From Cytophagaceae bacterium (lineage in GTDB: Bacteria > Bacteroidota > Bacteroidia > Cytophagales > UBA9547), in the NCBI GenBank assembly GCA_027488865.1, contig JAIYAU010000046.1, forward strand, positions 62,001 to 126,000: a stretch of DNA of 64,000 bases, given 5' to 3'. Below, one piece after another: positions 17,565 through 36,233 of the stretch (position 1 is its first letter; the number at the start of each line of letters is the position of its first letter). A program made the position numbers and the translations under genes. The notes under the pieces are model-generated. The model was not told the origin of the DNA and searched no databases. It saw only the letters and a program-made list of their open reading frames with translations.

Positions 17565-18359
17565 TTATTCGATTTCATCAAAAAACGACCTTTTATTAGA
17601 CTTTGGTATAACCTCTGCCAATTTTTCTTTTTCAACCTCTTCCAAAGGCATTTTGGTTTCAAATGATTTGTCCTCAATACTTGCCACTTCGGGCATAACT
17701 GCCTCACTGGATTTTGTGATTGGCTCTGTTTCCAAAACATCCGTTTTGATGGAATTTATAACTTTTTGCTCAGATTCCTTTAAAACTTCCTTGTTTTCCT
17801 CCTTTAAAGGTTTTTCATCATATTTATTAAAAAGCTCTATCTTGTTGTTTCTATTATACCTTTCAAGCCTTTCCGAAATATCACCAACAATATTTTTTAG
17901 CTCTTGTAAAATATTATCTCTTTTATTTTCTACCTCCCTATATTCAATGGTTAAATTTTTAAGATCATCACGAGCTCCAGTTACTATACTTTTAGCCTGA
18001 TCTTCAGCTTCTTCTATAATAGTTTTGGCTTGATTTTTTGCCTCTATTAAAATAGCATCCGCTTTCATTTGTGTTTCACGTAATAACAACGAAGCCTGTT
18101 TATTGGCCTGTTCTATCATATTATTACCAGTATCCTCTGCCGTTTTTAGGGTTCTAAAAAGCGTGGTTTCTACTTCTCTTAACTTTTGCACTTCGCGTTC
18201 TGCACTTTCAAAACGTAGTCTAAGTTCTTTGTTATCATCCATTACTCGTTCCCATTCTTGCGACAGAGAGGTAATGAAGGCCTGAACCTCCTCTACATCG
18301 TACCCCCTAAACTTTCTATCAAACTGTTTTTGTCGTATTTCGAGTGGTGTGATTTTCAT
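17565..18359 (-). CDS. DivIVA domain-containing coiled-coil protein
   Basis: A 264-aa cytoplasmic protein. Residues 1-60 match the DivIVA/GpsB N-terminal domain (TPLEIRQKQFDRKFRGYDVEEVQAFI). A long coiled coil, rich in E, K, Q and A, runs from about 35 to 165. The C-terminal 90 residues are acidic and low-complexity. In other phyla such proteins sit at curved membrane and organise division or wall growth; the role in Bacteroidota is little known. It heads a likely operon with folB and porP. Confidence 0.83.
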   Translation of the reverse strand: MKITPLEIRQKQFDRKFRGYDVEEVQAFITSLSQEWERVMDDNKELRLRFESAEREVQKLREVETTLFRTLKTAEDTGNNMIEQANKQASLLLRETQMKADAILIEAKNQAKTIIEEAEDQAKSIVTGARDDLKNLTIEYREVENKRDNILQELKNIVGDISERLERYNRNNKIELFNKYDEKPLKEENKEVLKESEQKVINSIKTDVLETEPITKSSEAVMPEVASIEDKSFETKMPLEEVEKEKLAEVIPKSNKRSFFDEIE

Positions 18360-18573
18360 TATATGCTACTAGAATTGCAAACAGTGGTAAAATCTTGAAT
18401 AATTGCCAAATATAAAAAACTTTTAGTCAAATACCTTTAATTACAGCATTTTGAATGGTTTTTACTAGAATCATTTTCATAACTTAATGCTGCATAAAAG
18501 AAATAGTGCCAATAATAAATCAAGTAATTATTAATTATTTTTCAATAAAATATTTAATATTAAAAATAAATCA

Positions 18574-18581
18574 TACCTTTG
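18574..18581 (+). promoter_or_regulatory. -7 promoter element of the DEAD-box helicase leader
   Basis: TACCTTTG is a perfect TAnnTTTG in very AT-rich DNA; no clear -33 TTTG is seen. Transcription would start near 18588, just at the beginning of the GC-rich structured leader. Confidence 0.5.
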
Positions 18582-18587
18582 CAGCAT

Positions 18588-18763
18588 CAAGGCTTCCTTA
18601 TCCCCACCTCTGTTGTACTGTGGGCCCAGTGAGAAGCCTGTAAGTGGCTGTCACTAGGGCACAGATTGCGTTCATCGCTTTAAACGCCGCTTCAAAAGTT
18701 TTAAAACAATAAAAAAATCGCTTGTTAAGCGTTGGCGCATGCGTTTAGCATCTATGTAAAATC
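18588..18763 (+). ncRNA. GC-rich structured 5' leader of the DEAD-box helicase mRNA
   Basis: About 175 nt between a promoter element and the helicase ATG. By count 35 of 60 bases are G or C at 18601-18660 against 14 of 60 in the preceding 60. A long hairpin can form: CTGTG (18618-18622) with CACAG (18660-18664), CCC (18625-18627) with GGG (18657-18659), AGTGA (18628-18632) with TCACT (18651-18655). Its loop holds GAAGCCT (18633-18639), complementary to AGGCTTC at 18590-18596, so an H-type pseudoknot is possible. Competing pairs exist (CCCAC 18603-18607 with GTGGG 18620-18624). Further hairpins are GCGTT/AACGC (18668-18687) and CGCTT/AAGCG (18719-18731). I do not recognise a named RNA family; it could be a cis-regulator or an independent small RNA. 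Confidence 0.5.
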
Positions 18764-20461
18764 ATGGAAAATAAAATTAAATTCGTTGATCTTCAGCTAT
18801 CTGAAGAAATTCAAAGTGCAGTTGCAGAAATGGGTTTTGTAGAGGCATCTCCAATTCAGTCTCAATCAATACCTCTATTGTTAGCAGGCAGAGATGTGTT
18901 GGGTCAAGCACAAACTGGAACAGGAAAAACTGCTGCATTTGGTATACCAGCTATCGAAAATATTGATATTGAAGATAGAGATACACAATGTTTGGTATTA
19001 TGTCCAACACGTGAACTAGCATTACAAGTAAGTAATGAATTTGCAAAACTTGCCAAATTTAAAAAAGGACTACGTACGTTGGCAGTTTACGGTGGAGAAT
19101 CTATTGATCGCCAAATAAAAGCACTAAAAGGTGGAATTCATGTAGTAATTGGGACTCCTGGCAGGGTTATAGACCACATTGACAGAGGCACACTTAAACT
19201 AGATCGTATAAAAATGATCGTACTTGACGAAGCAGATGAAATGCTCAATATGGGATTCATCGATGACATTAAGTCTATATTAAGTGAGATGCCTGAAGAA
19301 CGCCAAACAGTGTTCTTTTCTGCCACAATGCCAAGAGAAATTATGGAATTGACTAAAAAATTCCAGAAAAATCCAGAAATTGTTAAAATAACACGAAGTG
19401 AAATCACAGTTTCTAATATTGAACAATCATATTATGAAGTAAGAAATGATATTAAATCGGAGTTATTAACTCGTTTAATTGATTTTCACAACCTAAAATT
19501 AATGTTGATTTTTTGCAACACAAAACGCAAAGTAGACGAGCTGGTAGAGGATTTACAAGCCAAAGGATACGGTGCTGAAGGATTGCATGGAGATATGCGC
19601 CAGCAACAACGTAACAATGTGATGGCTAAATTTCGCTCAGGCGTAATAAATGCATTGGTTGCTACTGATGTAGCAGCAAGAGGAATAGATGTGGATAGTG
19701 TTGAAGCGGTATTCAATTACGATGTACCTCTGGATGCCGAAAATTATGTTCATAGAATTGGACGTACAGGTCGTGCAGGTAAATCAGGTATGTCTTTTAC
19801 GTTTGTAACTAGATCAGATCAACGTTTATTGCGTGAAATTATGCAATATACAAAGGCCAATATCAATAAATCTGTAGCTCCATCTGCAAAGGATGTAATT
19901 GAGCAAAGAAAAACAAGGTATATGGAGCAAATAAAAGAACTTATTGCCCAAGGTGGTCTTACCAAATATACTGAGGTTATTGAAAATTTTGAATCACAAG
20001 GAATTGAGCCTTCGTTGGTGGCTGCAGCTCTATTGAAAATGAACTTTAGTCTTGAAGTAAAAGAGATTAATGTTGAAGAAAGAGAGAGAACAAGAAGCAG
20101 TGACGATCGTGGAAACAGACGTGATAGAGATAGAAGCGAAAGACCAGAAAGAAACGAAAGAGAGCGCGGAGATAGAGAGCCACGTTCACGAGCTAGGACC
20201 AACGACCGTGGTGACAGAGACGATAGCCAAATGGTGAGGTTGTTCTTAAACGCTGGTCGTGCTGACCGTGTAAGCCCTGGAGATATAGTAGGTGCCATAG
20301 CAGGCGAAACTGGATTAAAAGGAAGCATGATAGGTGCCATAGACATTTTTGACAAATATTCTTTTGTAGATTTACCAAAGGAACACGTCGAAGACGTGAT
20401 TGAAAAAATGTCAAGAAGGAAAATAAAAGGCGTTAAAGTTAATATGGAGGTTGCTAATTAA
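18764..20461 (+). CDS. DEAD-box ATP-dependent RNA helicase (DeaD/CsdA-like)
   Basis: A 565-aa RNA helicase. The RecA-like core (1-370) has a Q motif (ASPIQSQSIP), Walker A AQTGTGKTAA, PTRELA, DEAD, SAT and HRIGRTGRAGK. A charged, RGD/RE-rich low-complexity linker (about 430-485) precedes a C-terminal DbpA-type RNA-binding domain (MVRLFLNAGRADRVSPGDIVGAIAGE). This layout matches DeaD/CsdA, which acts in ribosome assembly and mRNA unwinding, especially in the cold. The long structured leader suggests autoregulation, as known for some bacterial helicase genes. It ends 3 nt from a convergent kinase gene. Confidence 0.93.
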   Translation: MENKIKFVDLQLSEEIQSAVAEMGFVEASPIQSQSIPLLLAGRDVLGQAQTGTGKTAAFGIPAIENIDIEDRDTQCLVLCPTRELALQVSNEFAKLAKFKKGLRTLAVYGGESIDRQIKALKGGIHVVIGTPGRVIDHIDRGTLKLDRIKMIVLDEADEMLNMGFIDDIKSILSEMPEERQTVFFSATMPREIMELTKKFQKNPEIVKITRSEITVSNIEQSYYEVRNDIKSELLTRLIDFHNLKLMLIFCNTKRKVDELVEDLQAKGYGAEGLHGDMRQQQRNNVMAKFRSGVINALVATDVAARGIDVDSVEAVFNYDVPLDAENYVHRIGRTGRAGKSGMSFTFVTRSDQRLLREIMQYTKANINKSVAPSAKDVIEQRKTRYMEQIKELIAQGGLTKYTEVIENFESQGIEPSLVAAALLKMNFSLEVKEINVEERERTRSSDDRGNRRDRDRSERPERNERERGDREPRSRARTNDRGDRDDSQMVRLFLNAGRADRVSPGDIVGAIAGETGLKGSMIGAIDIFDKYSFVDLPKEHVEDVIEKMSRRKIKGVKVNMEVAN

Positions 20462-26653: not shown

Positions 26654-26658
26654 CAACG

Positions 26659-26766
26659 CTTATCAAGAAAGGCGGAGGGATAGGACCCTATGAAGCCTTA
26701 GCAACCACCCTGCCCCATAAGGTATAGGTGCTAAATTCCTGCCAGATTATCGCTGGCGAAGATAAG
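26659..26766 (+). promoter_or_regulatory. SAM-I (S-box) riboswitch
   Basis: P1 is CTTATC (26659-26664) with GATAAG (26761-26766). Between them lie the core pieces of the S-box: AAGAAAGGCGGAGGGA, GAAGCCTTAGCAACC and GGTGCTAAATTCCTGC, then a GCCAG/CTGGC hairpin. SAM binding should reduce expression of the downstream metH. No clear U-tract terminator precedes the ATG, so control may act on translation. Confidence 0.93.
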
Positions 26767-26848
26767 GTAACAAAGCTTCTTCCCTTGGTTATCGCGCTTT
26801 CTTGATTGGTATTTGAAATTATCTAAAAAACGATCATTCGAAACATTA

Positions 26849-36066: not shown

Positions 36067-36146
36067 TTTTAAAATGCTAACAATTAAAATTTGCTTACTC
36101 GGGGAGGATTTACACCTAAGAACGAGGTATAAATTAACATCGGGCA

Positions 36147-36229
36147 CTTATTCCCTTCGTAGGTATTATCCTAATCAGGTTCAAAGGGTATCATCTCAGT
36201 TCTTAAAAAATAAGAACACCCCTATAAGC
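36147..36229 (-). promoter_or_regulatory. TPP (THI-box) riboswitch
   Basis: Read on the minus strand: an AGGGGTG 5' strand, CTGAGATGATACCC, TTTGAACCTGAT, AGGATAATACCTACG and GAAGGGAATAAG, all hallmark THI-box pieces. CTTAT (near 36228) closes P1 with ATAAG (near 36147). It controls thiS-thiC in response to thiamine pyrophosphate. Confidence 0.95.
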
Positions 36230-36233
36230 AATA

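Follow-up and report, generated by a model that had tools for sequence, protein, structure and literature searches.

Ribosomal proteins offer well-known cases of riboswitch-like and protein-autoregulated leaders. In the rpsO/S15 and alpha operon/S4 systems of E. coli, and in gene 32 of phage T4, the mRNA of an autoregulated RNA-binding protein has a leader pseudoknot close to its start codon. A long structured 5′ UTR with alternative folds also precedes the cold-response gene cspA of E. coli, and Chlorobi-RRM RNA precedes genes whose products are RNA-binding (RRM) proteins. We know of no structured-RNA family for a DEAD-box helicase in Bacteroidota. Chlorobi-RRM RNA (RF01697) has been listed among structured RNAs as a candidate cis-regulatory element of Chlorobi (PMC2864571). 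In Bacteroidia, whose ribosomes mostly disregard Shine-Dalgarno (SD) sites, rpsU is known to be under feedback by way of an extended SD; in Cytophagales such feedback has been inferred mainly for Cyclobacteriaceae (PMC9976891).

The leader described here precedes a DEAD-box RNA helicase gene (18764..20461, plus strand) in a 64,000-nucleotide stretch of a Cytophagaceae genome, referred to as a whole as the window. The 565-aa product carries DEAD, Helicase_C, DeaD dimerisation and DbpA RNA-binding domains (Pfam PF00270, PF00271, PF25399 and PF03880, all above cut-off), by which it is classed as a full-length helicase of the DeaD/CsdA/DbpA, cold-shock type. With these domains it is an RNA-binding protein, as is expected of the product of a gene with an autogenous operator. 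The leader has its own promoter box, TACCTTTG at 18574..18581 (+), which corresponds to the Bacteroidota −7 type (TAnnTTTG) and is assigned its function from the known consensus of that phylum; transcription probably starts near 18586-18590, as judged from this box. The leader is 182 nt long, up to the ATG at 18764, and belongs to no upstream gene, since the neighbouring gene at 17565-18359 lies on the minus strand, divergent from the helicase. The genome has five paralogous DEAD-box genes: promoter-box leaders measure 25 nt in two, one of which also has a farther box, and 133 nt in one, while the remaining two have no clear leader of their own.

The leader is also unusual in composition. An earlier note on this DNA had pointed to a GC-rich island behind a TAnnTTTG box, with 58% GC against 23% just upstream, and recounting bears this out: GC amounts to 58.3% at 18601-18660 and to 23.3% at 18541-18600, and a GC content as high is reached by only 0.05% of 60-nt windows across the 64 kb. 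Over its whole length the leader reaches a GC fraction of 0.45, the highest among 17 promoter-box leaders within the window. Its plus strand holds no terminator-like site, which makes transcription attenuation unlikely. Close to the gene, a putative six-codon upstream ORF (ATGCGTTTAGCATCTATGTAA, 18739..18759, +) stops 4 nt before the helicase start and could, from its position, provide translational coupling to the helicase.

The GC-rich island contains a set of pairings that together describe a possible pseudoknot. An interrupted hairpin of 13 bp (S2) is formed in sequence by a 5′ arm with a GG bulge, CTGTGGGCCCAGTGA (18618..18632, +), and a 3′ arm with an A bulge, TCACTAGGGCACAG (18651..18664, +), and comprises the pairs 18618-18621/18661-18664, 18624-18627/18657-18660, 18628/18655 and 18629-18632/18651-18654. 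The earlier note had given this hairpin exactly, save for one arm that was off by one base. Directly behind the 5′ arm stands GAAGCCT (18633..18639, +), an exact 7-bp complement of AGGCTTC at 18590..18596 (+), and both pairings that the note had listed as rivals, CCCAC at 18603-18607 with GTGGG at 18620-18624 and AGTG at 18643-18646 with CACT at 18652-18655, are present. The putative pseudoknot helix (S1, 7 bp) would thus be combined with S2 through loops of 21 nt (L1), 0 nt (L2) and 11 nt (L3), a geometry that would be sterically reasonable with S1 and S2 stacked. ViennaRNA prefers a longer plain hairpin, in which AGCC at 18635-18638 pairs with GGCT at 18646-18649; because this extended hairpin uses 18635-18638, it competes with the pseudoknot. 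Its energy is put at -22.5 kcal/mol, compared with a sum of about -14 (S2) and -13.7 (S1), pseudoknot penalty excluded. A second, longer-range helix is predicted downstream between TGCGTTCATCGCTT (18667..18680, +) and AAGCGTTGGCGCA (18727..18739, +), at -16.2 kcal/mol, and its 3′ side ends 24 nt before the helicase ATG.

Judged from this single sequence, the fold is marginal, and the hairpin with its pseudoknot exceeds chance only weakly. The minimum free energy of the whole leader gives z = -0.76 or -1.18 in two computations, and that of 18588-18666 gives z = -0.52; the hairpin alone reaches z = -2.63, for a stretch picked post hoc. Among shuffles, 4% give a 7-bp Watson-Crick match of 5′ flank and loop (a chance of about 0.04), with the hairpin already picked. 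The best pseudoknot score for 18586-18670 is reached by 111 and 70 of 500 shuffles (14-22%), which is not significant; longer stretches score better (11-31 of 500 shuffles), but their optimum consists of a different pair set.

Rfam 15 has no family at the gathering threshold for this leader, with chance-level matches only at E<=10, and no family matches in 18 loci with orthologous leaders, in agreement with the earlier note, which could place the leader in no known RNA family. Elsewhere in the window, a SAM riboswitch (26657-26768, +) and a TPP riboswitch (36135-36233, -) are ordinary Rfam matches. A BLAST comparison with 58 relatives yielded only short, mostly A/T-rich matches to the leader, and other leaders of its own family could not be aligned with it. 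A single-sequence covariance model of the hairpin was run on 194 genomes of the order (the window's own and 193 others), and on the window together with 75 helicase loci; its one credible match is the hairpin it was built from. The nearest helicase in the comparison set is 63% identical and none comes from the same genus; at this distance, and with no homologous leader, the pairs of the window lie beyond the reach of covariation here. In a separate line of comparison, a mimic of 23S rRNA helix 92, whose A-loop GGCUGUU is the natural target of the DbpA domain, was considered and rejected: GGCTGT occurs in the window at 18646-18651, and GGCTGT/GCTGTT is not enriched over shuffles across the leaders.

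Orthologous genes provide the comparison that the single sequence does not. Helicase upstream regions were collected from more than 100 genomes of the same order (Cytophagales), plus further element matches; in many of these regions a TAnnTTTG box lies 60-330 nt ahead of the start codon. The folding z-scores of 40 orthologous helicase leaders, mostly one per genus, average -1.49 (SE 0.19). The corresponding mean is -0.46 (SE 0.17) in a control set of 57 further leaders from these genomes, drawn by the same promoter rule from the fetched loci (Mann-Whitney P = 2e-5, for rows that are not phylogenetically independent). Helicase leaders are therefore structured as a class, to a greater degree than the control set, and the shift to lower z is absent in most leaders of one family, f13. 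These leaders are conserved within families and not across them. One record in the set, L031 (CALPQG020000277.1), titled as a Bifidobacterium breve MAG, has a helicase upstream sequence identical to that of G005, a genome of the window's family, and is probably misnamed or contaminated.

The most clearly defined of these leaders belongs to Cyclobacteriaceae-type genomes. Its sequence is conserved in family f20, a family that includes the named Cyclobacteriaceae record L034, and in two f22 genomes (L211-L236 and L265-L274 in f20; L190 and L199 in f22), and a model of this element, R1, was built from 14 of these leaders. It matches in 41 of 148 f20 genomes, many others of which have no detectable element, and in 48 of 49 loci it immediately precedes the helicase ATG, the sole exception being the weakest match. 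R1 is an H-type pseudoknot of 15 pairs with two interleaved helices, t1 (GCCGTG/CATGGC) and t2 (TTCCTTACT/AGTAAGGAA). Across 46 distinct sequences the helices are 96.2% paired, compared with 39-56% after the partner strand is slid by 1-3 columns, and four pairs show two-sided changes, a count equalled by 0-4 of 500 shuffles. Taken alone, t1 is 95.5% paired, and its covariation is reached by 0 of 500 shuffles. The first t1 pair (G-C, A-U, G-U and others) has changed at least seven times on a tree of 30 helicases, on which a paired-site test has too little power, and a compensatory example within one genus turns GCCGTGG/CCGTGGC into GCTGTGG/CCGTAGC (L234, L267). The pseudoknot is thus supported by covariation in the sequences compared, and R1 is a candidate new RNA family, concrete enough to propose. 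The 3′ strand of t2 contains AAGGAAA, some 10 nt ahead of the ATG, and closure of the knot would therefore mask the site where ribosomes land.

These comparisons divide the earlier note's claim of a structured, pseudoknotted helicase leader into two parts. At the level of the gene it is supported, through the folding scores of the class and the covariation of R1 in one family; the window's own pseudoknot and switch stay putative, with a fold that barely rises above shuffles and no homologue in the genomes and loci searched. The note had named an Rfam hit, or a lack of covariation in orthologous leaders, as outcomes that would speak against it; what was found is covariation in the Cyclobacteriaceae-type pseudoknot and no Rfam match, hence neither of the two.

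Family f13 probably holds another structured leader, of about 185 nt, which is conserved in 27 sequences. A CGGCC/GGCCG helix is 93% paired there, with two-sided changes in two pairs, and a near-invariant block, GCTGTTTTCAG, can pair over 12 bp with a 5′ block, TTTGAGAACGGC (L183, L187, L191, L193, L237-L261). A 12-bp helix of this family that joins the 5′ and 3′ ends of the leader is 95% paired, with zero two-sided changes. A long P2 helix was also tried for these leaders and is not supported, being only 64% paired.

The relation of the window leader to these families is a matter of traces. The R1 model has no match in the window or elsewhere in its genome, and an AAGGA-like site is absent before the window ATG, where the sequence reads ...GCATCTATGTAAAATCATG. 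The interleaved order of the R1 strands (t1-t2-t1′-t2′) recurs in the window as AGGCTTC / CTGTGGGCCCAGTGA / GAAGCCT / TCACTAGGGCACAG, although R1 has a short L1 and a long L2 of about 35 nt and shows no detectable homology to it; the shared topology is by itself weak evidence. The heptamer TCGCTTG (18718..18724, +) is common to the window leader and to leaders of f2, f13 and f20, and 0 of 500 shuffles spread as widely over four families; TTCCTTA is common to the window leader, f20 and f22, and both motifs were noticed post hoc. They are possibly shared traces of one ancestral leader, and common descent of these leaders is possible. The stronger proposal, that a single old, fast-diverging pseudoknotted autogenous switch, remodelled by the helicase, gave rise to the window leader, to the Cyclobacteriaceae pseudoknot and to the leader of f13, their sequences having drifted beyond recognition, appears rather unlikely. 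In the f2 genome G010, a 9-bp helix can be drawn in the helicase leader (L204) between CTCGCTTGA and TTAAGCGAG, the latter immediately ahead of the ATG; this helix, which uses the TCGCTTG motif, is a possible means of start-site masking.

The presence of structured leaders at the helicase gene, together with a covarying pseudoknot in one family, suggests that this gene is controlled through its own RNA. The reading preferred for the window, in which we place middling confidence, is that 18586-18763 is a cis-acting structured 5′ leader, transcribed from the TACCTTTG promoter, that sets helicase translation through a closed or open fold, with the helicase itself as the likely effector. In a leader of the Cyclobacteriaceae type, the closed knot would hide the ribosome landing site and the open knot would expose it; the general disregard of SD sites by Bacteroidia ribosomes speaks against this reading (PMC9976891). 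By analogy, the hairpin or pseudoknot of the window, if it forms, may act with the second helix in holding the 5′ UTR closed or open. Helicase in excess would bind or remodel its own leader, and helicase would run short when drawn off to ribosome assembly or to RNA stabilised by cold. Translation as the controlled step and the helicase as its effector are what we infer from the position of these elements and the nature of the encoded protein.

A simpler account, which retains a considerable probability though one short of even, is that the window carries just a long, GC-rich, lineage-specific 5′ UTR, in which hairpin and complement arose by chance, and that the Cyclobacteriaceae pseudoknot is a separate invention irrelevant to it. 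The weak folding scores, a complement with a chance of about 0.04 once the hairpin had been picked, and the lack of homologues in the genomes and helicase loci searched all agree with such an origin. It accords less well with the excess of structure in helicase leaders as a class over others of the same genomes, with the recurrence of long leaders at this gene, and with a GC island within the top 0.05% of the window.

Two further accounts assign the leader a function of another kind. If the RNA alone refolded with temperature, on the model of E. coli cspA, cold would permit helicase synthesis and a protein effector would not be needed; the cold-shock (CsdA/DeaD) type of the gene and the near-isoenergetic competing folds (the extended hairpin against S2 plus S1, before the penalty) fit such a thermosensor or cold-adaptation element, but competing pairings are common in any GC-rich RNA, and we regard it as decidedly improbable. 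Less probable still is a separate small non-coding RNA gene upstream of the helicase: the GC island does have its own promoter box, yet the plus strand offers no terminator, Rfam has no match, and the Cyclobacteriaceae elements are fixed directly before the helicase ATG. For the preferred reading, of a leader through which the helicase governs its own translation, it is the Cyclobacteriaceae element, more than the fold of the window, that lends significance. Were the helicase to act on a pseudoknot in its own leader, a remodelling enzyme would be tied directly to an RNA fold that it can open, in a compact feedback loop that would be testable in culturable Cyclobacteriaceae.

The literature searched for a helicase leader element describes none, and none is in Rfam; the kind of element (structured, sometimes pseudoknotted, leaders of genes for RNA-binding proteins) is known, while for this gene, and for the element itself, the sources searched have no precedent. 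The cspA leader resembles that of the window in being a long structured 5′ UTR, with no relation in sequence or in Rfam. Chlorobi-RRM RNA belongs to another lineage and another gene, and has no match in the window or in the 18 orthologous loci. The likeness to rpsU (bS21) of Bacteroidia lies in feedback at a translation-related gene of the same phylum, and the Cyclobacteriaceae helicase leader likewise has AAGGAAA before its ATG (PMC9976891); in place of an extended SD, this leader has a short SD-like site within the pseudoknot, and the window has none. The rpsO/S15, S4 and gene 32 operators serve ribosomal or single-strand-binding proteins whose binding has been shown, whereas the putative binder here is a DEAD-box helicase, and the putative knot of the window, unlike theirs, is separated from the ATG by more than 95 nt. 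Their layout is the one matched by the Cyclobacteriaceae element.
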